Shown: one piece after another, positions 1,385 to 23,308 of the stretch
Position numbering within the stretch: the first letter of the stretch is position 1
Layout: every line of letters starts with the position of its first letter
Assembly: GCA_022775385.1 (NCBI GenBank)
Contig: JALFIV010000020.1
Coordinates: 1-40,137 of the forward strand
Direction of reading: 5' to 3'
DNA from: Clostridiales bacterium
GTDB taxonomy: Bacteria > Bacillota > Clostridia > Oscillospirales > Butyricicoccaceae
DNA length: 40,137 nt
Notes under the pieces: model-generated
Told to the model about the DNA's origin: nothing
Database searches by the model: none
What the model saw: the letters and a program-made list of their open reading frames with translations, nothing else
Translations under genes and position numbers: made by a program

Positions 1385-2317
1385 TTAGTCAGCGAACAGT
1401 GCGGTGGACAGATAGCGGTCGCCGGTATCCGGCAGCAGTGCTACGATGGTCTTGCCCTTGTTCTCCGGACGCTTTGCCAGCTCGATGGCCGCCCACAGCG
1501 CCGCACCGGAGGAGATACCAACCAGCACACCCTCGCTGCGTCCGATCGTCTTTCCGGTGGCAAATGCATCCTCGTTCTTGACCGGAATGATCTCGTCATA
1601 CACACTGGTGTCCAGAACATCCGGCACAAAGCCTGCGCCGATACCCTGAATCTTGTGCGAACCTGCCTTGCCCTCGGACAGGACCGGAGAGGATGCCGGC
1701 TCAACTGCGACGACCTTGACCGACGGATTCTTCGACTTCAGATACTCACCGACGCCGGTGACCGTACCGCCCGTGCCGACACCTGCGACAAAGATATCGA
1801 CCTGGCCGTCCGTATCCTCCCAGATCTCCGGACCGGTGGTCTCACGGTGTGCCTGCGGGTTTGCTGGGTTGACAAACTGACCCGGGATAAAGCTGTTCGG
1901 GATCTCCTTCGCCAGCTCATCCGCCTTGGCGATAGCACCCTTCATGCCCTTGGCGCCTTCCGTCAGCACCAGCTCCGCGCCATATGCCTTCATCAGCTGA
2001 CGGCGCTCGACGCTCATCGTCTCCGGCATGACGATGATGATGCGGTATCCGCGCGCGGCGGCGACGGATGCCAGACCGATACCGGTGTTGCCCGAGGTCG
2101 GCTCGATGATGACCGAACCCGGCTTCAGCAGGCCTTTTTCCTCGGCATCGTCGATCATCTTCTTGGCGATGCGGTCCTTGACCGATCCCGCCGGATTGAA
2201 GTATTCCAGCTTCGCCAGAATGCGGGCATCCAGGTTCTCAGTCTTCTCTACGTGGGTCAGTTCCAGCAGCGGGGTCTTGCCGATCAGCTGGTCTGCGGAT
2301 GTATAAATCTTGCTCAT
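1385..2317 (-). CDS. cysK: Cysteine synthase A (O-acetylserine sulfhydrylase)
   Basis: PLP enzyme that makes cysteine from O-acetylserine and sulfide in the cytoplasm. The 310 residues are full length for CysK. The PLP-binding lysine is K47 in NPAGSVKDR, the substrate-binding loop PTSGNTG is near residue 73, and the PLP-phosphate glycine loop [12 protein letters not shown] is near residue 176. The ATG at 2317 is preceded by TAGGAGGAACATGCT. A consensus promoter at 2385-2413 and a terminator at 1329-1365 make it monocistronic. The Rrf2 regulator gene just upstream in the same direction is the likely controller. CysK rather than CysM or cystathionine beta-synthase is supported by length and the lack of extra domains. 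Confidence 0.97.
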
Positions 2318-2437: not shown

Positions 2438-2869
2438 TCAGATCACAAAGTCGTTGCCGGGGATATCCGGATGGATCAAGTCGGACAGATAGATATTGTC
2501 GAGATAATCCGTAATCCGGTCGTACAGTCCCTTCCACATGGACAGTGTCCGGCAATCCGCCGCTTGCTCGCACTCCATCGTCGGCTTGCTCAGACAGGAT
2601 ACCGGCGCAAGGCTTCCCTCGGTCAGACGAAGGATATCGCCGATGCGGTACTGATCCGGCGAACGGGTCAGCTTGTATCCGCCGCCCTTGCCGCGCAGTC
2701 CGCTCAAATATCCCTCCTGCGTCAGGATCTTGATAATGCTCTCCAGATATTTGACAGAGATACCCTGCCTCTCCGCAATCGCCTTGAGCGGAATAAAGCC
2801 TTCGCTCGGGTGTTCTGCAAGGTCGATCATCACGCGCAGCGCGTACCGGCCTTTGGTTGAAATCATCAT
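2438..2869 (-). CDS. Rrf2 family transcriptional regulator (IscR/CymR type)
   Basis: A 143-residue winged-helix regulator with the family N-terminus ISTKGRYALRVMIDLA, recognition helix ISVKYLESIIKIL and wing LRGKGGGYKLTR. Three cysteines follow the dimer helix (C92, C100, C106), in the region where IscR holds a [2Fe-2S] cluster, though the spacing C-X7-C-X5-C differs from IscR C-X5-C-X5-C. It probably senses Fe-S or cysteine status and controls cysK downstream and its own gene. The start is ATG 2869 or the adjacent ATG 2866, behind AGGGAGGG. Its own promoter is at 2915-2943. Confidence 0.92.
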   Translation of the reverse strand: MMISTKGRYALRVMIDLAEHPSEGFIPLKAIAERQGISVKYLESIIKILTQEGYLSGLRGKGGGYKLTRSPDQYRIGDILRLTEGSLAPVSCLSKPTMECEQAADCRTLSMWKGLYDRITDYLDNIYLSDLIHPDIPGNDFVI

Positions 2870-3003: not shown

Positions 3004-3041
3004 CAAAAAAACACCGCCCTGCGTTTCCACAGAGCGGCGTT
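3004..3041 (-). terminator. Terminator of the acylation operon
   Basis: Minus-strand hairpin AACGCCGC / GCGGTGTT with an inner CTG/CAG pairing, followed by a run of seven or more Ts, 10 bases after the thioesterase stop codon. It closes the transcription unit that starts at the promoter at 11516-11544. Confidence 0.85.
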
Positions 3042-3050
3042 CCAGCTCAC

Positions 3051-3758
3051 TTATTCTATGTGTTCTGCCGCGCGGTTGATGATGCGCGCGACCTGTTCCG
3101 GACAGTTCTTGAGGAAGAAATGATTGTCTCCCAGCTCGACAAACTCGCTCCCGGCATGGCAGAATGATTCCCATCCGTGTACCAGCTCCGCAGGGATATC
3201 CTGCGGAGAATACAAGACGGTGACATCCATATCAAATCGTCCGCGATGATTGGCGGGATAGGTACCGAGCAGGCGGTAGTCCGCACGCAGCGGCTCAAAG
3301 TACAGACGGCGGAAAAACCGGTTGTGCATGAGCTTGTCGTTCGAATCGTCAAAGCCGCCGAACTGCTTCATGGTCTCCCACATCTCTTCGTCCGACATGT
3401 CCTGATAGCGCTTGCTGTCCCAGTGTCCGTCCGGCGCCTCATGCGACGCCAGAAACACATGGCAGGGTGTACGATCCAGCATGCCGCGCGCGATCATCTC
3501 ATATACGCCGATCGTGCCCATGCTGTATCCGAACAGCATCAGCTCGTGATCCGGCAGAAGACGGGCGTTGATGTACGCCTGCGCGTCGTCCGCCAGCGCG
3601 GCAAAGTCGGGATAACACGGCTCCTTGATGCGCTTTCCGTGTCCGGCGTACTCAAACGCATCCAGCGTGATGCGCGCATCCAGATGATCACGCAGTACCT
3701 GAAAGAAATCCGGTCCGCCGCCGGCGTACGGCAGACAGAACAGCTGTATCGGTTTCAT
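3051..3758 (-). CDS. Type II (external) thioesterase, GrsT/RifR-like
   Basis: An alpha/beta hydrolase of 235 residues, the normal length for the type II thioesterases that clear wrongly loaded carrier proteins in peptide and polyketide synthesis. The family start LFCLPYAGGG is present, followed by the nucleophile elbow GYSMG (S79) and the catalytic histidine in ELGDNHFF (H213). It is the last gene of the operon; its ATG overlaps the acyltransferase stop by 4 bp (ATGA), so the two are probably translationally coupled. No peptide synthetase is nearby: the only visible carrier protein is the ACP at 9688, so I infer that it hydrolyses misacylated or stalled acyl-ACP. The specificity is unknown. 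Confidence 0.9.
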   Translation of the reverse strand: MKPIQLFCLPYAGGGPDFFQVLRDHLDARITLDAFEYAGHGKRIKEPCYPDFAALADDAQAYINARLLPDHELMLFGYSMGTIGVYEMIARGMLDRTPCHVFLASHEAPDGHWDSKRYQDMSDEEMWETMKQFGGFDDSNDKLMHNRFFRRLYFEPLRADYRLLGTYPANHRGRFDMDVTVLYSPQDIPAELVHGWESFCHAGSEFVELGDNHFFLKNCPEQVARIINRAAEHIE

Positions 3759-4888
3759 ATGTCGTCCTCCCTCACAGTCGGTATGGGTTGGGTCTGCTCA
3801 AATACCTCCTCCGGCAGATCCGGAATCGGTTCGGTCGTCTGACGGAGCGGCTCCGACGGCTCTCCCGCCGGCTGTTTCGCAAGCGGTGGAACCGTAATCC
3901 GGCGCACCAGCCAGTCAAACGGACGCAAGCCGAGCACAATCGTAATCAGCAGCGCAATCAGCAGCATCCATCGCAGTGCAGAATCCTCCGGAAGTTCGTT
4001 CAGCAGATAGAACTTCACATGGTGCTTGCCGATCTTGATGCCGCTGCACACAATCATGATAATACAGTAATGCAGTGCGTAGATCGACATGGTTCGGCTG
4101 CCGAGCTTGGACCAGAAGCCGCGCAGAGACGGGACAAGCACAATAACCGCAAAGGTCATGAGCAGAGCGACGACATACACAGCAAGGCGGTACAGGCCGC
4201 CGTATACAAACAGATCTTCATCGAGATTGCGGTAGGAAAATCCCTTGAGAACCGGGACAATCCATTCCAGATCATCATAATACAGCGCGCTCACAACGCC
4301 CGCCGCGATCAAAACCGCCGCGCCGAGCAGCTTGACCCAGATCTTCCGGCTCATTTTGAGCAGGGTATCCTGCTCCATCCAGAATCCCAGCAGGAAAAAC
4401 GGATAGAACGAACACGCGCGCGCCAGCACCATCTGTCCGCCGAGCGTCAGGTCATAGCCCGCCATACAGCCGAAGAATACCGAGATCAGCAGAACATAGC
4501 GCCTGTCAAACTTCTGCAGGAACATGGTCACGAGATAGAACAAAAAGATGACAAAGGCATACCAGTCGACACCGATGGTGGAGAACAGCTTGAATGCCGC
4601 CTCGCGGGACAGCGCGACGCGGGTCAGAAACAGGGCAAACTTGATGAGAAAATACAGCGCCAGAAAGGTGAACGCTTTATCATACCGGTGACCTCGCACC
4701 GCGCGCTTGGAAAACAGGCCGGACAGAAAGACGAACGCCGGCATGTGAAAGGCATAGATGAACAGATAGATTCGATTGAGCAAATCCGCATCCCGCTCCA
4801 CATAGTTGATGATATGGCCGAGTACCACGCAAAAAATCAACAGCAGACGGATATTGTCCCATTTTGCAATTCGTTTGGTTTCTGTCAC
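3755..4888 (-). CDS. Acyltransferase family 3 membrane protein (OafA/NodX type)
   Basis: An integral membrane O-acyltransferase of 377 residues. The N-terminus KRIAKWDNIRLLLIFCVVLGH has the family pattern of a charged start followed by a first helix ending in the conserved His. About ten hydrophobic helices follow (for example IYLFIYAFHMPAFVFLSGLF and MSIYALHYCIIMIVCSG), ending in a Pro/Glu-rich cytoplasmic tail. I place the start at GTG 4888, behind GGGGGA, because the longer frame would run far into the upstream gene. It probably moves an acyl group to an extracellular glycan and is the second acyltransferase in the operon beside the MBOAT protein. Donor and acceptor are unknown. Confidence 0.88.
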   Translation of the reverse strand: MTETKRIAKWDNIRLLLIFCVVLGHIINYVERDADLLNRIYLFIYAFHMPAFVFLSGLFSKRAVRGHRYDKAFTFLALYFLIKFALFLTRVALSREAAFKLFSTIGVDWYAFVIFLFYLVTMFLQKFDRRYVLLISVFFGCMAGYDLTLGGQMVLARACSFYPFFLLGFWMEQDTLLKMSRKIWVKLLGAAVLIAAGVVSALYYDDLEWIVPVLKGFSYRNLDEDLFVYGGLYRLAVYVVALLMTFAVIVLVPSLRGFWSKLGSRTMSIYALHYCIIMIVCSGIKIGKHHVKFYLLNELPEDSALRWMLLIALLITIVLGLRPFDWLVRRITVPPLAKQPAGEPSEPLRQTTEPIPDLPEEVFEQTQPIPTVREDDI

Positions 4889-4910
4889 GGATGTTCCCCC
4901 ATTCTGTCTC

Positions 4911-6407
4911 TCATCGGTCCGGAACGAAATTGGCGCGGAGGACACCGTCCGGACAGCGGGCAATCGTACACTCCTCGGCAATGACATTCTGTGTGTTGTC
5001 ATACAGCAGCAGGTTCAGACCGAACCCGGTATAGTTTCCGCTCGTTCCTCCCGCTTTGATCTCCGCATCCTTCTGCCGGTTCTCCTTCGGCGCGGAGACC
5101 GCCTCCAGTGTGCCGCCGTTGGTCATCGTTCCGGTCAGCACCAGCTCACGCGATGTGCCGGTCTTTTCCTCTGTCGTTCCATTGGCGATATAAGCAGCGT
5201 AGGTCTTTCCCTCGAGCGAGGCAATGTCGGTCTCAAATCCGCAGGACTCGAATGCCTCCTGCATCTCCTCTGTCCAGAGCGAGCAGACCGTATCGTCGGT
5301 CAGCTGCAGGATCACATCGTAGTCTCCGGTAGACAGATAATCCTCACTCAGCTGCGTGAGATAGGAGACGACGTCGCTCTCGGTCTTGAAATATGCCTCG
5401 CGCTTGACCGCATGGTATTTCTCCAGCACAGCATCGTCCATCGGACTTGCCTCGCGGAAATCCGTCAGGTCATAGTGCTCGGTCAAATAGGCGCCCAGCG
5501 CATCCGACAGCTTGTCCGCGCCCCGCAGATTGAGATGCTGCGGGTCTTTGAAATCTGTGTAGAAATCCAGTCCCAGCTCGCGGCAGCCCTCCGCCGCGGC
5601 ATAGTCCAGCAGCGGGAGGTTCATCTCCTCCGCCAGCTCCTTCATCTGCGACTGATAGGATTCCGTCCAGTCCTCCTTCGGGGTTTTAAACAGCACGAGT
5701 GCGATGCCATTCTCGTCGCAGTATGCTTGAATCAGCCGGAGCGCCTCGACAGACTGCTCCTCCAGCAGGGTTTCGTCCGTCTCTCCCGGCTCGGTTTTCA
5801 TCAGCGCGTTATAATCGGTAAAGGAATAGTTGTAATCGGTCGGGAAATTGCCGCGGTACAGCGGACTGTCCTCCACCGTGTAGCGGAAATCCGTGCGCGT
5901 CAGCTCCTCCCACCGCGCGTGGTATTTGACCAGCGGACAGAGATAGCTGAACAGAGAATCCGCATCCTCGTTCTCGGCGAGATGCCGGCGGACGATGTCG
6001 ATTTTGTTCCACGACAGACGCATCGGGTCGATTGCCTGCCGGTAAAAGCTCTCTCGGTTGATCTCGGTCATCTGGCTGACATCCAGCAGACAGACCTTGA
6101 TATTCTGCCGCTTGTCCAGCTCACGCAGCCAGCCGAGGGAGCACAGGATGGACTGATTGGGCGATCCGGTCGAATAGGCGGAGATGCCGTATTTCTCATA
6201 CAGCTCCATGCCGCTGATGCCAAATGCAATCTGACTGCTGCCGCAGACCGCAACCTCCACACTGTTCTCCGGCAGTTCATACAGCGTATCCGCCATATAG
6301 GTCTGCCGGTTGTCTGTGACGAACTTCTCCTTGAAGATGCGGTTCGCCGTGAGAAAAACAACAACGCAGAGAAGGATGAACAGTGCAACTTTTGAGAGTT
6401 TCTTCAT
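4911..6407 (-). CDS. DltD-like SGNH-fold acyltransferase/esterase, copy 2
   Basis: Membrane-anchored extracytoplasmic protein of about 498 residues. One N-terminal helix (VALFILLCVVVFLTANRIF) is followed by an SGNH-type domain: nucleophile block VAVCGSSQIAFGIS, the block KVCLLDVSQM, and the C-terminal Asp-His block DFKDPQHLNLRGADKL. DltD carries a comparable GSS and D..H arrangement. A C-terminal region of about 190 residues follows and is not part of classical DltD. It is a close paralogue of the adjacent gene at 6449. ATG 6407 is preferred over 6413 because GGAGG abuts the earlier ATG; it also aligns with the paralogue's start. Likely role: final acyl transfer to a wall or surface polymer. 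Confidence 0.82.
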   Translation of the reverse strand: MKKLSKVALFILLCVVVFLTANRIFKEKFVTDNRQTYMADTLYELPENSVEVAVCGSSQIAFGISGMELYEKYGISAYSTGSPNQSILCSLGWLRELDKRQNIKVCLLDVSQMTEINRESFYRQAIDPMRLSWNKIDIVRRHLAENEDADSLFSYLCPLVKYHARWEELTRTDFRYTVEDSPLYRGNFPTDYNYSFTDYNALMKTEPGETDETLLEEQSVEALRLIQAYCDENGIALVLFKTPKEDWTESYQSQMKELAEEMNLPLLDYAAAEGCRELGLDFYTDFKDPQHLNLRGADKLSDALGAYLTEHYDLTDFREASPMDDAVLEKYHAVKREAYFKTESDVVSYLTQLSEDYLSTGDYDVILQLTDDTVCSLWTEEMQEAFESCGFETDIASLEGKTYAAYIANGTTEEKTGTSRELVLTGTMTNGGTLEAVSAPKENRQKDAEIKAGGTSGNYTGFGLNLLLYDNTQNVIAEECTIARCPDGVLRANFVPDR

Positions 6408-6448
6408 TCTCATCCTCCTCTGCGGTGTTAAAAATTGTCTGTGATTGT

Positions 6449-7999
6449 TTACTGATGGCGGTTCTCAAACGGACGGAACAGCTTGAGCGTGCCGTCGGCG
6501 TCCAGCGCAACCGTTGCGAGATCGAGAACCCGGTCGGTCGTGCTCTCATAGAACACGATGTTGACGCCGCGTCCGGTGAACTTCTTGCGCACGCCGTTGA
6601 GAATCAGCGCCGGCGTTGCGGCATCCTCAGACAGCGGAGTCGCCTCAAACGAATACGGAATGCCGTCTGCGAACTTGCCCTTGACCTCCGCGCTGTCGCC
6701 GCTGACCTTTTCCTTGACCTTGCTGTTTGCGATATTCGAGCCGGCATAAGCCTTGCCCTTCAGGTCGCGCAGGTCGGTCTCAAAGCCGCAGGACGCGAGC
6801 GCCTCCTGCATCTCGTCCGTCCAGTACGGCAGAATGCTGTCGTCGGTCAGACCGACAAGGATGTCGTAGTCCCCGGTCGAGAGATAGGCCTCGCTCATGT
6901 TGCTCAGATAGGAAGCAACGTCGCCGTCGGTCAGCTGATATGCCATGTCGCGCGCGGTGTGGTACTTGCTCATGTACGCCTCGTCGTGCAGACCGCTCTC
7001 GCGGAAATCGGTCAGGTCATAATTCTCATGCAGATACTTGCCGAGTTCGTCGGCGACCTTGTCCATGCCGCGGACGTTCATGTGCTCGGAGTCCTTGAAA
7101 TCCGAGTGGAAATCAATTCCCAGCTTCTCACACTGCTCCTCATTGGAGTAGTTGATGTAGGTGATTCCCAGCTCGTCCGCCAGTTCCTGCGTCTTGCGGT
7201 CCTTGGTCGCGGTCCAGTCGGACTTCGGCGTCTTGATGAGCAGCATCTCGATGCCGTTTTCGTCGCAGTACTCCTTGTACTTGATCAGACTGTCGCGCTG
7301 ATAGCCGACGATCGTGAGATCCTCCTCGGTCAAGTCATTCTCGTCCACAACGAGATTATCATAGCCGGTAAACGAGCTGACATAGTCCGCCATGCGCGTA
7401 CCCATGAACATCGGACTGTTCTCGGTGGAGAACGTAAAGTCGTCCTTGGTCAGCTCCTCCCAACGCGTGTGGTACTTCATGATCGGGAAGATATAGGTCA
7501 GCATCGGATCTGCCTCTTCCACCGTGGTCTTTCTGCCTTCCTCGGCGCGCAGACGCTCGGTCTCGTCGATGTGCTGCTGTACAATGTCCAGCTTGTTCGC
7601 CGACAGCTTCATGGTGTCCAGTGTCTGGCGGTAATCCGCCTCGCCGATGCGCTCAAACAGCTGGCTGGCGTCCAGCACTGCGACCTTGATGTCCTGCGTC
7701 TTGTCGATCTCACGCAGCCAGCCCAGCGAACACAGGATGCCCTGATTCGGGGAGCCGGTGCCGTAGGCCGAGATGCCGTAGTCCTCATACAGCTTCATGC
7801 TGGAGATGCCGAATACCATCTGGCTGCTTCCGTTGAACACAACCTCGATGCTGTTGTCCGGCTGTTCATACAGCTGCGCCGCCGTGTAGGACTGGCAGTT
7901 ATTGTCGATGAACTTTGCCGTAAAGACTTTGGTCATTCCGGTCAGAATTACCGCAAACAAAACGACAAAGGCGATAATTTTACAGATTGTTTTCTTCAT
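6449..7999 (-). CDS. DltD-like SGNH-fold acyltransferase/esterase, copy 1
   Basis: Membrane-anchored protein of about 516 residues with the same layout as its neighbour: helix IIAFVVLFAVILTGM, nucleophile block VVFNGSSQMVFGISS, block KVAVLDASQLFE, and Asp-His block DFKDSEHMNVRGMDKV. The paralogues share long stretches such as GTGSPNQGILCSLGWLRE versus STGSPNQSILCSLGWLRE. It directly follows the MBOAT gene, the position DltD holds after DltB. The start is uncertain (ATG 7999 or 8008, weak ribosome binding site). I chose 7999 because MKK then aligns with the MKK start of the paralogue. Seen: fold motifs and paralogy. Inferred: the role in acyl transfer outside the cell. Confidence 0.83.
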   Translation of the reverse strand: MKKTICKIIAFVVLFAVILTGMTKVFTAKFIDNNCQSYTAAQLYEQPDNSIEVVFNGSSQMVFGISSMKLYEDYGISAYGTGSPNQGILCSLGWLREIDKTQDIKVAVLDASQLFERIGEADYRQTLDTMKLSANKLDIVQQHIDETERLRAEEGRKTTVEEADPMLTYIFPIMKYHTRWEELTKDDFTFSTENSPMFMGTRMADYVSSFTGYDNLVVDENDLTEEDLTIVGYQRDSLIKYKEYCDENGIEMLLIKTPKSDWTATKDRKTQELADELGITYINYSNEEQCEKLGIDFHSDFKDSEHMNVRGMDKVADELGKYLHENYDLTDFRESGLHDEAYMSKYHTARDMAYQLTDGDVASYLSNMSEAYLSTGDYDILVGLTDDSILPYWTDEMQEALASCGFETDLRDLKGKAYAGSNIANSKVKEKVSGDSAEVKGKFADGIPYSFEATPLSEDAATPALILNGVRKKFTGRGVNIVFYESTTDRVLDLATVALDADGTLKLFRPFENRHQ

Positions 8000-8017
8000 A
8001 ATGCCCATACCCAATTC

Positions 8018-9616
8018 TTAGAACGCCATGTATACGAACGATGCCGCATCATAGCCCGGACCGTAGATGCCGAATACCGCGATGACGATCATCGCCGCAA
8101 AGTAGATCATCCAGCGGACGACCAGATTCTGACGGCTGATCCTATCGCGGACCGAACCGCGCACCTGCAGCTGGCTGACCACAAAGAATACCAGAATTGC
8201 GGCGATTGCCACACAGATATTCAGCAGATCGAGTCCATGGCTCGTCAGCGTGCCGTCAAAGAACACCCACGGGTTAAAGGTAATCAGAATATTTTTGCAG
8301 ATATACCATGTGTTAGCCAGCGATCCCGGGCTGGTGAGCAGGCGTCCGCCGGCAAAGATCAGCGTCGTGCGCGCCGCCTGAATGAACCGCCAGGAGGTCG
8401 TGTCATAGTTGATGTGCAGCTTGGTGCCGAGGCGGGTCAGATCCTCGCCGAACGATACCGACATCAGGATCATAAACGCATAGTAGAAGCCCCAGCAGAC
8501 ATAGCCCAGACCATTGCCGTGCCAGGTGCCCGTCAGAACCCAAGTGATCGTAACCGGAATCGCCGTGATCAGGACACGGGAGACACGCGGCGGAATCTTG
8601 CTCGTGCGCGCCTTTTTGTTCAGGTTTTTGACCAGCTTGGAGGTGCTGACCGGATAGTATACGTAGTCCTTGAACCAGGAACCCAGAGACATGTGCCACC
8701 GTCTCCAGAACTCAACCACGCTCTTGGAGCCGAACGGATGATTGAAGTTCAGGTCCAGCTCGACGCCAAACAGGTCGGAAGCGCCGCGCGCGATATCCAT
8801 ACAGCCGGAGAAGTCCGAATAGATGTAAACGACATCCAGCAGCGCCGCAATGATGTAGACAAAGCCGCCGTTCATTCCCTGCTCGATGCTGTAAACCGAC
8901 TGGATGAAAATATTCAGGCGGTCTGCGATAACGAGCTTCTTGAAATAGCCCCACAGCATGAGCTGAAGGCCGTACGAGCAGCGGTGCGCATCAAAGCGCA
9001 GCTCCTGCTTGAGGCGCTGACCCAGACGGCCGTAGCGCTCAATCGGTCCCTGCAGGATGTGTGGGAAGTAAATCGCATACAGCAGGAAACGTCCGTAGTT
9101 GGTCTCATAGTCGACCTTCTTCCAGAATACGTCCAGCAGATAGCTGAGGGTGGAGAAGGTGTAGTACGAAATACCCAGCGGGACGATGATCATCGCCGCA
9201 CTGAAGGTCGCACCGCTTCCGATCATCGCAAGGAAATCGTTGATCGGATTGACCAGAAATCGGGTGTACTTGCTGATGCACAGAATCGCAAGGTTGAATA
9301 CCAGACAGGCGATCAGATACTTCTTCGCATCCTTCTTCGCCTGCTCGCGCAGTGCCTTTTTCGCCTTCCGATCGATTGTCTTATCCGTGCTGATGGTCTC
9401 ATCCAGCTGTGCATAGATCCGGCCGATTTTACGCCCGGCCAAAAAGACGCTGAACGAGGTAATCAAGATAAACGGAAGGTACTTCACACCGGCGATCATA
9501 TAAAAGACAATGCTGATCGCGAGCAGCATCTTCCAGCGATGCTTTACCGGGCAGATGTAGAACAGTGCAACACTGATCGCAAGAAATGCCACAAAGTCAA
9601 GTTGAATAAAAGTCAT
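8018..9616 (-). CDS. MBOAT family O-acyltransferase (DltB/AlgI-like)
   Basis: Polytopic membrane acyltransferase of 532 residues. The MBOAT signature is complete: FWRRWHMSLGSWFKDYVYYP, then the invariant active-site histidine in GTWHGNGLGYVCWGFYYA. GPIERYGRLGQ and the helix YIYSDFSGCMDIARG are also typical. The RRWH...DYVYYP block is nearer to the AlgI/PatA branch than to classical DltB as I recall it. It probably accepts the acyl group from the ACP (9688) at the inner face and passes it across the membrane to the DltD-like proteins. Its ATG has an AGGGGAAA site, and a 9-bp stem-loop (9631-9659) separates it from the ACP gene. Confidence 0.93.
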   Translation of the reverse strand: MTFIQLDFVAFLAISVALFYICPVKHRWKMLLAISIVFYMIAGVKYLPFILITSFSVFLAGRKIGRIYAQLDETISTDKTIDRKAKKALREQAKKDAKKYLIACLVFNLAILCISKYTRFLVNPINDFLAMIGSGATFSAAMIIVPLGISYYTFSTLSYLLDVFWKKVDYETNYGRFLLYAIYFPHILQGPIERYGRLGQRLKQELRFDAHRCSYGLQLMLWGYFKKLVIADRLNIFIQSVYSIEQGMNGGFVYIIAALLDVVYIYSDFSGCMDIARGASDLFGVELDLNFNHPFGSKSVVEFWRRWHMSLGSWFKDYVYYPVSTSKLVKNLNKKARTSKIPPRVSRVLITAIPVTITWVLTGTWHGNGLGYVCWGFYYAFMILMSVSFGEDLTRLGTKLHINYDTTSWRFIQAARTTLIFAGGRLLTSPGSLANTWYICKNILITFNPWVFFDGTLTSHGLDLLNICVAIAAILVFFVVSQLQVRGSVRDRISRQNLVVRWMIYFAAMIVIAVFGIYGPGYDAASFVYMAF

Positions 9617-9630
9617 ATTTTTCCCCTAAA

Positions 9631-9659
9631 CTGGGCGGCACAATGTCTGCGCCGCCCAG
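9631..9659 (-). other. Intercistronic stem-loop between ACP and MBOAT genes
   Basis: Perfect 9-bp GC-rich stem CTGGGCGGC / GCCGCCCAG with an 11-base loop, ending 15 bases before the MBOAT start. No U-tract follows, so it is more likely an RNA-processing or stability element that sets the ligase/ACP to membrane-protein ratio than a terminator. Confidence 0.55.
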
Positions 9660-9687
9660 TCCTCTCGTGAATCTGAATTGTTTCCGA

Positions 9688-9912
9688 TTAGTCCATCAGT
9701 TCCTGAACCATCGCCCACATTGCCTCGACAGAATCGAAATTCTCCGGAATGATGTATTCCATGCTGATTTCGATATCAAAGGTATCCTCCAGCTCTGCGA
9801 GGATCGAGGTCATATCGATCGAATCAATGATCTTGTTGGTGTAAAGACCGGTCTGTCCAGCGTAGTCAATATTCGGGTTGACGCGCTTCAGTGCTTCTAA
9901 CAGTTCATCCAT
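9688..9912 (-). CDS. Acyl carrier protein (DltC-like)
   Basis: Small acidic four-helix carrier of 74 residues. The phosphopantetheine attachment serine is S31 in IIDSIDMTS, followed by the helix ILAELEDTFDIEIS typical of carriers; the usual D-S-L is D-S-I here. Length and the position between an AMP-forming ligase and an MBOAT gene match DltC rather than the fatty-acid AcpP, which would sit with fab genes. It is presumed to be loaded by the ligase at 9981 and unloaded by the MBOAT at 8018, with the thioesterase at 3051 as an editor. The ATG has a TTAGGAGG site. Confidence 0.92.
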   Translation of the reverse strand: MDELLEALKRVNPNIDYAGQTGLYTNKIIDSIDMTSILAELEDTFDIEISMEYIIPENFDSVEAMWAMVQELMD

Positions 9913-9980
9913 TGTGGTAACCTCCTAAAAATCAATGTATATACTTTCATCGCCTGTGCTCCGGCGATAACGATATCGGT

Positions 9981-11387
9981 TTACTGCGGAAGATCCTTGT
10001 AGAGGACCTTGCCGGCCTCGTTCTTCGGGATTTCATCCACGATGCGGACGGTGTATGCGCGCGGATTCAAATGGGTGCGCTCGTGAATCAGCTCCATAAC
10101 CTCATCCTTGTGTGCCTCGTTGGTGATGAAAATCTGCATCAGATCATCGTTGCCGGTGCTTGCGCAGTCGAGGTCCTCGAACTCCGCCTTGACCATGCGG
10201 TCGATCTCATCCAGATTGACACGGTTGCCGAACAGCTTGAGGAAGCGCTTCTTGCGTCCGACAATGTAGTAGTAGCCGTCCGCGTCCATCTTCGCCATGT
10301 CGCCGGTCTCCAGACGGCCGCCGCGCTCGTCGCCCTTGATCAGGTCGGCACCGCACTCCGCATAGCCCAGTGTGACGTTGTCGCCCTCGTAGACCAGCTC
10401 GCCGACGACGTCCGGCTCGGTGATCGGGTTGTCGTTGATGTCGCGCAGGATGAACTTGCCGCCCGGGATGACCTTGCCCATGCTGCCGAACTTCTCGAGC
10501 GCCTTGTCATACGGCAGATAGCCCATACGCGCGGTCGCTTCGGTCTGTCCGTACATGACGACAAAGTGCTTGCCGGTCTTTTCGGCATACTCGGCGAATT
10601 CCTTGTGCAGCTGCGGTGCAAGCTTGCCGCCCGCCTGCGTAAACGTGCGCAGATCCGGCAGGTCCATGCGGAAGAAACGGATGCGCTTGAGCATCTCATA
10701 GGTGAATGGCACACCGCCGAACGAGGTCGCCCTGTTGTCCTTCATGAAGCTCCAGAACTCCTTGGAGACAATCGGCTGGGTGGTCAGCAGCATGGTCGCG
10801 CCGACCAGCGCATGGCTGTTGATGATGGACAGGCCGTATGTATAGTTCATCGGCAGCGTCGTCACCGGACGCTCGGTCTCATCCAGCTCGAGGTATTCGA
10901 CAATCGCCTCGGCGTTGGACTGGATGTTGGTGTAGCTCTGACGAACCAGCTTCGGACTTCCGGTCGAACCGGAGGTGGTCAGCAGCAGCGCCAGCTGATC
11001 GTTCAGCGGGTAAACCGTCTCATAATTCGTCCTGACCAGCGAATAGCCGAAGCGGGAGAGGACGACCGGATACGGATACTGCTCAAGCAGTTCGTCCGGC
11101 AGGTACAGATACGACGGGCTGTAGACATCCAGCAGATGCTGTGCAAGCACGTCGTTGATCTTGGCGTCCACCATCAGCGGTACAATCTTGTTGTACAGGA
11201 AGCTGAGATAGCCCGCCGCAGAGCCGATTGCGTTCTTGCAGAAGCTGAACACCAGGCACCGCTCCGGAACCGCTTCCCCCAGCTCCTTTGCAAACGCCTC
11301 GAGCTGTGCATAGCTCAGTGTTTCGCCGTCCTCCTGGAGAAATGCGGTTTTATCCCCAAATTTTCCAAAACTATCGTAGTAACTCAT
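9981..11387 (-). CDS. AMP-forming acyl/aminoacyl-ACP ligase (DltA-like position)
   Basis: ANL-superfamily adenylating enzyme of 468 residues. It shows the ATP loop TTSGSTGSPK (137-146), motif VVMYGQTEATARMGYLP, the ATP-binding aspartate in RLETGDMAKMDADGYYYIVGR, hinge/C-terminal block RKKRFLKLFGNRVNLDEID, and the catalytic lysine near the end (NEAGKVLYKDL). It is shorter than typical DltA, and its A8 block (FLKLFGNRVNLDEID) differs from the DltA form, so D-alanine is not assured. An acyl or other amino acid substrate is possible. It is the first gene of the operon, with a weak ribosome binding site and a leader of about 125 nt. Confidence 0.88.
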   Translation of the reverse strand: MSYYDSFGKFGDKTAFLQEDGETLSYAQLEAFAKELGEAVPERCLVFSFCKNAIGSAAGYLSFLYNKIVPLMVDAKINDVLAQHLLDVYSPSYLYLPDELLEQYPYPVVLSRFGYSLVRTNYETVYPLNDQLALLLTTSGSTGSPKLVRQSYTNIQSNAEAIVEYLELDETERPVTTLPMNYTYGLSIINSHALVGATMLLTTQPIVSKEFWSFMKDNRATSFGGVPFTYEMLKRIRFFRMDLPDLRTFTQAGGKLAPQLHKEFAEYAEKTGKHFVVMYGQTEATARMGYLPYDKALEKFGSMGKVIPGGKFILRDINDNPITEPDVVGELVYEGDNVTLGYAECGADLIKGDERGGRLETGDMAKMDADGYYYIVGRKKRFLKLFGNRVNLDEIDRMVKAEFEDLDCASTGNDDLMQIFITNEAHKDEVMELIHERTHLNPRAYTVRIVDEIPKNEAGKVLYKDLPQ

Positions 11388-11515: not shown

Positions 11516-11544
11516 ATTATATCACAGCACATTTTTTCCGTCAA
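11516..11544 (-). promoter_or_regulatory. Promoter of the seven-gene acylation operon
   Basis: Minus strand: TTGACG (11539-11544), 17-bp spacer, TATAAT (11516-11521). The transcript would carry a leader of about 125 nt in which CGGCTG and CAGCCG can pair. I recognise no riboswitch family in the leader. Confidence 0.85.
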
Positions 11545-11605: not shown

Positions 11606-12940
11606 TCATCGCCGGTTGGAGCGGCGCCAGATATGCTGTTCCTGTGCCGCGGCAATCAGCTCCTCGCGGAAGTCCGGATGGGCGATGGAAATCAGCAGTT
11701 CCGCACGCTCCCACGTCGAGCGTCCCTCCATGTTGACCACGCCGTATTCGGTCGCGAGGAAATACACCTGACTGCGCGGCGAGGTGATGATATCCCCCTC
11801 AAAATGCGGAAGAATGCGCGAACGGCGCACGCCGTTTTTGTCCCGGTGTGTGGACGGCATACAGATAAATGCCTGTCCGCCCTTGGATGCCGACGCACCG
11901 ACCAGAAAATCCAGCTGTCCGCCGGTTCCGCTGATCTGCCGCATGCCCGCGCTCTCGGACGAGACCTGTCCGAACAGGTCAATCGCCACACAGCCGTTGA
12001 TGGAGACCATGTTGTCAATCTGACCGATGACATTCGGGCTGTTGACATACTCGAGCGGATAGGACGCCACGCTCGGATTGTTGTCCAGCCAGTCGTACAG
12101 CTCGTGCGAGCCGATCGCCACACCGAGCACGCCCTTGCCGCGGTTGACGTTTTTGCACTTGTTGGTCAGTTTTCCCGCTTTGAACAGTTCGTAATAGGCA
12201 TCCGAACACAGCTCGGTGTGCATGCCGAGATCCTTGAGATCCGAGTCCGCCAGCAGATGTCCCACCGCGTTGGGCAGGCTGCCGATGCCGAGCTGCAGGG
12301 TCATGCCGTCGCGCATATACGGGAGCAGATGTCCCGCAATCTGAATATCCGTCTCGGTCGGCGGTGCAATCGGCACCTCCGGCGGCGGTGTGTGCTCCCC
12401 CTCGACGATATAATCCACTTCGGAGATGTGGATGCACTCGTCATAGCCGCCCAGCATGTGCGGCAGATGCTCGTTGATCTCGACAATCACGATATCCGCC
12501 TTGCGCAGAATCGGCGCGGCAACGCCGGTCGATGTCGAGAAATTGAAATAGCCGTGGCGGTCCATCGGCGTCACGCTGATCATCGCCACATTGACCGACA
12601 GGAAATAATGGTAGTACGCCGAATTGTTGTGAAAAACCATCGGGATATAGTAACACAGTCCGCGGTCGCACAGTTTGCGCTCGTAGGCAGAGCAGTGCCA
12701 GGTGTGGTAGGTAAAGTGCTCCTGCGTCGGATCGCACTCCGCGGTCTGAATCGGACCGGGAATCAGGTTTCCCCGGATCTTGACATCCGTCAGCTCATCG
12801 CGCCGGGCTGCCAGTGCACGGTCGAGCAGCGGCGGAAATCCCAGAGAAGTCGTGTAGTCAATCCAGTCCCCGTCCTTGACCACGCGGACCGCTTCCTCCG
12901 GTGTGCGCAGCTTGCTTCGGTACTCGGTTAATACATCCAT
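11606..12940 (-). CDS. Acetyl-CoA hydrolase / CoA-transferase family protein
   Basis: Family I CoA-transferase of 444 residues, related to butyryl-CoA:acetate and 4-hydroxybutyrate CoA-transferases. The catalytic glutamate is E243 in LGMHTELCSDA, and the CoA-binding loop GIGSLPNAVG is near residue 218. The C-terminal GTGGQLDFLVGASASKGG and TEYGVVNMEG blocks are family hallmarks. It swaps CoA between short-chain acids in the cytoplasm. In a gut clostridium this could be the terminal step of butyrate formation, but propionyl-, succinyl- or hydroxybutyryl-CoA specificity cannot be excluded. It is monocistronic and divergent from the oxidoreductase at 13179. Ribosome binding site: GTGAGGTGGCGAC. 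Confidence 0.9.
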   Translation of the reverse strand: MDVLTEYRSKLRTPEEAVRVVKDGDWIDYTTSLGFPPLLDRALAARRDELTDVKIRGNLIPGPIQTAECDPTQEHFTYHTWHCSAYERKLCDRGLCYYIPMVFHNNSAYYHYFLSVNVAMISVTPMDRHGYFNFSTSTGVAAPILRKADIVIVEINEHLPHMLGGYDECIHISEVDYIVEGEHTPPPEVPIAPPTETDIQIAGHLLPYMRDGMTLQLGIGSLPNAVGHLLADSDLKDLGMHTELCSDAYYELFKAGKLTNKCKNVNRGKGVLGVAIGSHELYDWLDNNPSVASYPLEYVNSPNVIGQIDNMVSINGCVAIDLFGQVSSESAGMRQISGTGGQLDFLVGASASKGGQAFICMPSTHRDKNGVRRSRILPHFEGDIITSPRSQVYFLATEYGVVNMEGRSTWERAELLISIAHPDFREELIAAAQEQHIWRRSNRR

Positions 12941-23011: not shown

Positions 23012-23101
23012 TGGCGGAGAAGGAGGGATTTGAACCCTCGCGACACTTTCGCGCCCTACTCCCTTAGCAGGGGAGCCCCTTCACCACTTGGGTACTTCTC
23101 C
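23012..23101 (-). tRNA. tRNA-Ser, anticodon GCU (GCT)
   Basis: Class II tRNA with acceptor GGAGAAG / CTTCTCC, discriminator G and encoded CCA. The anticodon loop reads CT-GCT-AA, there is a long variable arm (GGGCGCGAAAGTGTCGC) and T-arm GGTTCAAATCC. It is read from the same promoter as the upstream tRNA-Ser(UGA). Confidence 0.97.
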
Positions 23102-23219
23102 ATTTCAAGCTGTGTGCAGACAATGTGGATGCACACGGCGTTCCAAGGTATTATGCGTGACGGCAGGACGGACAGAGACCGGTGATGGTTCATCCGTTTC
23201 TCTGCCGCTCGCGTTGTTG

Positions 23220-23308
23220 TGGCGGAGAGGGTGGGATTCGAACCCACGCGCCCTTTCGGACAAACGGTTTTCAAGACCGCCTCGTTATGACCACTTCGAT
23301 ACCTCTCC
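23220..23308 (-). tRNA. tRNA-Ser, anticodon UGA (TGA)
   Basis: Class II tRNA: acceptor GGAGAGG / CCTCTCC, discriminator G, encoded CCA, anticodon loop CT-TGA-AA, long variable arm and T-arm GGTTCGAATCC. First gene of a two-tRNA unit. The 118-base spacer to the second tRNA contains nothing I recognise. Confidence 0.97.

Follow-up and report, generated by a model that had tools for sequence, protein, structure and literature searches.

What does a seven-gene, dlt-like operon of a Butyricicoccaceae bacterium attach to the cell envelope, and is it more than a divergent form of dltABCD, the operon for teichoic acid D-alanylation? The question is raised by contig JALFIV010000020.1 (40,137 nucleotides, analysed whole and here called the window), contig 63 of a 2.14 Mb draft genome in 142 contigs. 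The operon runs on the minus strand from 11387 to 3051, and its genes encode an AMP-forming carboxylate ligase (LIG), an acyl carrier protein (ACP), an MBOAT acyltransferase, two SGNH proteins, an acyltransferase-3 (AT3) membrane protein and a type II thioesterase. The evidence makes it probable that this is a dlt-like system in which a carboxylate other than an amino acid is passed, by way of a PatA-like shuttle that the MBOAT protein carries in cis, onto an envelope polymer; the reactions, the acid and the acceptor we infer. The open reading frame list and the family searches yielded the following features, and the sequence-only reading proved right on the seven genes, on the promoter (11544-11516) and on the terminator (3043-3008); it had missed the shuttle hexapeptide, the probable nature of the C-terminal SGNH domain and the fusions of ligase, ACP and AT3 in other organisms.

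11516..11544, minus strand: promoter-like site of sigma-70 type, TTGACG-17-TATAAT with TG before the -10 (extended -10), 11 of 12 consensus positions; pattern match only
9981..11387, minus strand: AMP-forming carboxylate ligase (LIG), 468 aa; Pfam AMP-binding
9688..9912, minus strand: ACP, 74 aa; Pfam PP-binding; predicted phosphopantetheine site Ser31 in IDSIDM
8018..9616, minus strand: MBOAT acyltransferase, 532 aa; Pfam MBOAT; His308 (WRRWH) and His366 (GTWHG)
8021..8038, minus strand: acyl-shuttle hexapeptide FVYMAF with Tyr529, the final six MBOAT codons; sequence motif
6449..8014, minus strand: SGNH1, DltD-like; start at 8014, 8008 or 7999; GSSQ and DSEH; one N-terminal membrane helix
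6452..6967, minus strand: SGNH1 C-terminal ILEI/FAM3-like domain, putatively glycan-binding; Pfam matches of relatives and fold comparison
4911..6413, minus strand: SGNH2, architecture as SGNH1; GSSQ and DPQH; 45% identical to SGNH1
3755..4888, minus strand: AT3 membrane protein, 377 aa; GTG start at 4888, longest frame from 5002; Pfam Acyl_transf_3
3051..3758, minus strand: type II thioesterase, relative of RifR and SrfA-D; GYSMG and GDNHF; 4-base overlap with AT3
3008..3043, minus strand: intrinsic terminator-like hairpin, 16-pair stem and T-run; pattern match only

The matches of the operon proteins to AMP-binding, PP-binding, MBOAT, Acyl_transf_3 and Thioesterase all exceed the Pfam cut-offs.

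Judged from its sequence, LIG is not DltA, since it belongs to a separate clade and has Thr in place of Asp. In a tree of 63 ligases, 27 LIGs and 21 DltA-like ligases of related Clostridia operons fall into two separate clades, each supported at 100/100; the grouping with DltA that would have refuted the sequence-only reading was not recovered. Thr183 of the window enzyme aligns with the amine-binding Asp, a column occupied by Asp in nearly all DltA-like ligases and by Thr in most LIGs. The solved structures that match LIG at 1e-20 do not include DltA, the closest being CoA ligases for oxalate, o-succinylbenzoate and malonate. Likewise, DltA models are not among the best 25 NCBIfam matches of the window LIG, whereas the same models rank second to third for a control, L103 (L numbers denote the loci compared). 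PF13193 has no match in LIG; the A10 lysine, K460, is present nonetheless.

With Thr in the position of the Asp that holds the alpha-amine, the acid is likely not an amino acid, and the substrate of LIG is probably a small non-amino carboxylate. Y182, Y184, S187 and R287 are invariant across the 27 Clostridia LIGs; plasmid-borne relatives in other phyla keep R287 and S187, and all but one keep Y184. We take T183, Y184, S187 and R287 to be the equivalents of GrsA positions 235, 236, 239 and 331. The invariant Arg287 suggests that the acid has a second polar or anionic group. An attempt to name the acid from the pocket residues was abandoned, as aryl and hydroxy acids are not distinguishable by them. 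Directly upstream of the operon, at 11606-12940 on the minus strand, lies a gene for a butyryl-CoA:acetate CoA-transferase (TIGR03948, 513 bits against a cut-off of 675). Butyrate was considered as the acid on this account and is unsupported, that gene being absent from the closest locus, L008; a literature search on butyrylated lipoteichoic acid in Butyrivibrio gave nothing relevant.

The MBOAT protein also departs from dlt, in a place other than the one first proposed. Its signature had been said to differ from that of DltB, yet the two-histidine signature (WRRWH, GTWHG) matches DltB, with both histidines aligned within the same fold family; the score against TIGR04091 (DltB), 129.9 bits with a cut-off of 375, is below equivalog level. 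The real difference is a fused shuttle motif. The FxYxxF motif stands on a separate DltX in dlt and on the C-terminus of the MBOAT itself in the PatA type; PatA auto-acetylates the tyrosine of the hexapeptide, and DltX works likewise (PMC12148441). The window MBOAT ends in FVYMAF, and no other FxYxx[FY]-stop, and so no DltX, was found in the window, to which the scan was confined, the rest of the genome not being scanned. The pattern [FL]xYxx[FY] ends all 38 MBOATs compared, 36 of them in clusters that have a carrier gene and, between them, three ligase types.

In the MBOAT tree, the window-type proteins group in a single clade (15 rows, 100/100) that corresponds to the ligase type, an argument for joint action of ligase, carrier and MBOAT. 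An MBOAT at 1e-60 occurs in 95 of the 391 genomes of the class, and each of the 20 class-wide MBOAT loci fetched has a carrier gene and an SGNH gene. The ligase is DltA-like in most of these loci, FadD-like in L098 and L113 and of the LIG type in L097, and none is in range in L107. The sets in L098 (7347-12037) and L113 (4373-10582) are of the composition MBOAT-SGNH-ACP, with this third, FadD-like ligase type made up of AMP-binding and AMP-binding_C. According to a 2025 paper, other, non-dlt MBOAT-SGNH pathways have no carrier protein (PMC12148441); a dedicated carrier and a cis shuttle would be a combination that the known pathways of this kind are said to lack.

The ACP has the marks of a dedicated carrier, with PP-binding above cut-off and the serine site present. 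It scores 23 bits with the DltC model (cut-off 68) and is weakly similar to the cispentacin protein AmcB (NCBIfam). The thioesterase (PF00975, 75 bits; RifR, 1e-17; surfactin TEII, 4e-12; motifs GYSMG and GDNHF) groups with the editing type II enzymes, as fits a dedicated carrier.

Neither SGNH1 nor SGNH2 has a Pfam or NCBIfam match, PF04914 (DltD) included; both carry the active-site serine (GSSQ) and a DxxH motif (DSEH and DPQH, respectively). The best Foldseek match of the SGNH1 AlphaFold model (pLDDT 87) is DltD, and the C-terminal 170 residues of the predicted structure form a separate domain, in agreement with the initial description of two DltD-like proteins with extra C-terminal regions. 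Three lines of evidence, from weak to strong, suggest that this domain resembles ILEI/FAM3 and is putatively glycan-binding. Pfam ILEI (PF15711) is above cut-off in the SGNH proteins of the relatives L061, L062 and L063; the top PDB profile matches of the domain are FAM3C and FAM3A (E 0.07-0.9); and its best fold match in SGNH1 is to residues 295-413 of TMEM2 (Z 6.3, the next being 3.0; rmsd 2.8 over 104 residues). This TMEM2 stretch is annotated as a GG-type lectin domain. No significant match to the C-terminal domain came from Foldseek alone. Sugar binding is known for FAM3C and the POMGnT1 stem, with GlcNAc and mannose as ligands of FAM3-like domains (PMC9802357).

Close relatives of LIG were found at 27 loci in GTDB genomes. 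Chance is excluded as the source of the gene arrangement because the same core order, ligase-ACP-MBOAT-SGNH, is shared by at least 12 other genomes at ligase identities of 51-93%; the suggestion that this order echoes the logic of dltABCD holds. The four genes stand together in L008, L011-L016, L019, L021, L033 (where the ligase is cut by the contig end), L061-L063 and L097, and L009 and L010 have the same genes dispersed around a second set. Around this core the gene content varies. SGNH copies number one to four per related operon, AT3 is present in the window, L008, L011, L019 and L021, and the thioesterase in the window, L008, L011 and L033; as some related loci are cut by contig ends, gene absences there are soft. 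Two acceptors, as once proposed, are not shown: the SGNH copy number tracks nothing else tested. SGNH2 as a partner of AT3 was rejected: L012-L016 have two to four SGNH genes and no AT3 was seen, and L011 and L021 combine AT3 with one SGNH. The distribution is patchy, with LIG matches at 1e-40 in 7 of the 197 genomes of the order, the window's own included. Beyond these genomes, a Metabacillus plasmid carries ACP-LIG-MBOAT-SGNH, the MBOAT ending in FIYGGF, beside an iron-type importer. Literature searches for operons of this kind returned nothing.

The second set in L009 (10581-15864) and L010 (11717-17003) is itself dlt-like and consists of an amino-acid ligase closest to LgrA (linear gramicidin synthase), a formyltransferase (PF00551), an ACP, an MBOAT ending in FIYQQF and an SGNH protein, a composition which suggests that the envelope receives a formylated aminoacyl group. 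In L018, L022, L024-L029 and L121, LIG relatives stand in sugar loci with ACP, SDR, LuxE, LuxC and often transketolase halves; these gene sets may form a so far undescribed pathway from acid to aldehyde for surface sugars.

AT3 and the thioesterase had been called foreign to dlt, and both are indeed accessory rather than defining in the related operons. AT3 is nevertheless not foreign to this ligase family, to whose ligase-carrier module it is tied because the three are fused in other phyla. Arthrobacter and Mycolicibacterium plasmid records hold a single protein made of LIG, carrier and an AT3 domain above cut-off; the Rhizobium etli protein has the same make-up with AT3 just under cut-off, and that of Rhodococcus joins LIG and carrier to an unassigned membrane region. 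These fusion loci (L119, L120, L122 and L123, match at 9001 on) thus combine LIG and carrier with an AT3-like membrane domain, and Fe(3+)-type ABC importers adjoin in Rhodococcus and Mycolicibacterium. The fusions share with the window operon the ligase family, the carrier domain and the AT3 membrane domain; they differ in being one polypeptide and in having no MBOAT or SGNH. A review of AT3 proteins favours acyl-CoA over ACP as donor (PMC9558356), and the ligase-carrier-AT3 link would be a testable candidate exception.

The operon appears functionally dlt-like, yet not dlt by four tested features. With dltABCD-X, which carries out teichoic acid D-alanylation in Bacilli and C. difficile, it shares the functional order of ligase, carrier, MBOAT and SGNH, the DltB-type MBOAT and the DltD-like fold. 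It differs in a ligase of another clade without the amine-binding Asp; in a shuttle hexapeptide fused to the MBOAT and not placed on a separate DltX; in SGNH proteins that come in more than one copy and bear an extra, putatively ILEI-like domain; and in the presence of AT3 and a type II thioesterase. PatA/PatB peptidoglycan O-acetylation and systems of the AlgI/AlgJ type share the MBOAT with a C-terminal FxYxxF tyrosine shuttle and the separate SGNH protein, but these use acyl-CoA without carrier or ligase (PMC12148441), unlike the window operon with its dedicated ligase and carrier. Also related are Clostridia sets of four genes (DltA-like ligase, ACP, MBOAT and SGNH; e.g., L100-L112), for which no paper was found in the literature searched. 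They have the same MBOAT of about 530 aa, fused hexapeptide and linked carrier, and differ in an Asp-bearing, NRPS-like ligase and, in most, in a short SGNH of about 350 residues without the extra domain.

A route consistent with these data can be proposed. LIG would adenylate a small carboxylic acid and charge the dedicated ACP with it through the phosphopantetheine group, and the type II thioesterase would clear wrongly primed ACP. On the cytoplasmic side the MBOAT would receive the acyl group of acyl-ACP and move it through its pore to its own Tyr529 outside. SGNH1 and SGNH2, each anchored by one helix, would accept it on the catalytic serine and then form the ester with a polymer, either a glycan or a polyol phosphate, gripped by the ILEI/FAM3-like domain, the two copies probably serving two positions or two polymers. 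The polymer may also receive a second acyl group through AT3, this one either acetyl or identical to that carried by the ACP. Of the original proposal, carrier-dependent transfer to something outside the cell, distinct from dlt, is supported, and the aminoacyl option has become unlikely with Thr replacing the amine-binding Asp.

As to the acceptor, the best guess is a polyol-phosphate polymer, glycerol-phosphate or teichoic-like, because relatives of the operon adjoin CDP-glycerol polymer genes. In L011 the thioesterase is followed by glycerol-3-phosphate cytidylyltransferase (TagD; 187.5 bits, cut-off 165.4) and by a YfhO/PgfM-type glycosyltransferase, and a Glyphos_transf protein adjoins L009. 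The main rival for this step, which leaves the mechanism unchanged, is a capsular or exopolysaccharide sugar gripped by the lectin-like SGNH domains. This is a serious contender at somewhat less than an even chance: CDP-glucose and RfbH sugar genes come after the L033 operon, the capsule loci of Parabacteroides and Rhizobium in which LIG relatives occur also have PglD-type acyltransferases, and the sugars bound by FAM3-like domains, GlcNAc and mannose (PMC9802357), agree with it, against which stand the TagD and Glyphos_transf neighbours and the fact that no sugar locus adjoins the window operon.

Could the operon instead be a divergent D-alanylation operon, its ligase loading D-alanine and its differences due to lineage drift? 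The DltB-type MBOAT (TIGR04091, 130 bits), the DltD-like SGNH fold and the teichoic-like neighbours in L009 and L011 would agree, as would profile searches that found no second MBOAT and no Pfam DltD in the source genome, which has one LtaS-like sulfatase. This is improbable given the separate LIG clade, Thr for Asp, a DltB score far under the cut-off and no DltX in the window; moreover, in L009 and L010 the LIG set is accompanied by a DltA-like set that has the Asp, which is what different substrates would predict. No more credit is due to an MBOAT-SGNH pair that uses acyl-CoA like PatA/AlgI, with ligase and ACP serving another pathway. The fused hexapeptide of the PatA type has so far been shown only with acyl-CoA donors (PMC12148441), but nearly all relatives have the ACP gene placed between those of ligase and MBOAT, the MBOAT clade follows the ligase type, and a carrier gene never fails in the class-wide loci fetched. 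Slightly less probable still is that the system tailors no polymer but a secreted metabolite or an iron-binding group on the surface; this would account for the Fe(3+)-type ABC importers beside LIG relatives in Metabacillus, Rhodococcus and Mycolicibacterium and for the weak resemblance of the ACP to AmcB, and it is opposed by the lack of an importer in the window operon, by the membrane-anchored, DltD-like SGNH proteins with their glycan-binding-like domain and by the polymer genes that adjoin L009 and L011.

Several observations weigh against the preferred reading, transfer of a non-amino carboxylate to an envelope polymer. Exclusion of an alpha-amino acid by the missing Asp is only by analogy, and the DltA-like ligases of L114 and L034 have Ser at this column, so that some enzymes of that type also lack Asp. 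About half of the LIG relatives occur in other contexts (LuxE/LuxC, transketolase, sugar loci), which means that the ligase alone is no predictor of envelope acylation, and one genome of the same genus has no LIG match. The window AT3 shows no BLAST-detectable similarity to its counterparts in the LIG fusion proteins, and the C-terminal SGNH domain of the window has no Pfam match, its ILEI assignment leaning on relatives and weak structural matches.

A wider picture, which taken jointly we hold to be about evenly balanced between right and wrong, is that Clostridia possess a widespread, modular, carrier-fed MBOAT-SGNH envelope acylation with a cis tyrosine shuttle, in which at least three ligase types (amino-acid, FadD-like and LIG) would supply a common export machine with different acids. 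With LIG, the group placed on the polymer, teichoic-like or capsular, would be a non-amino carboxylate, a modification not known before, and the ligase-carrier module would also feed AT3. If true, this modular reading conflicts with the opinion that acyl-CoA is the donor for AT3 and for MBOATs outside dlt, and it raises the testable question of whether a fused-shuttle MBOAT, and AT3, can accept acyl groups from a carrier protein. The charge and acyl decoration of wall polymers set antimicrobial peptide resistance and host recognition. Systems like the window operon may stand in for dlt in gut commensals, where dlt models would miss them; a study of gut bacteria found no complete dltABCD in the commensals of the table rows consulted (PMC10877564).

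Elsewhere in the window, an Rrf2-type regulator gene (2438-2869, minus strand) lies downstream of the operon and upstream of a cysteine synthase gene (1385-2317, minus strand), an arrangement that by eye resembles a CymR-cysK pair, and two adjacent tRNA-Ser genes (GCT, TGA) occupy 23012-23308 on the minus strand.

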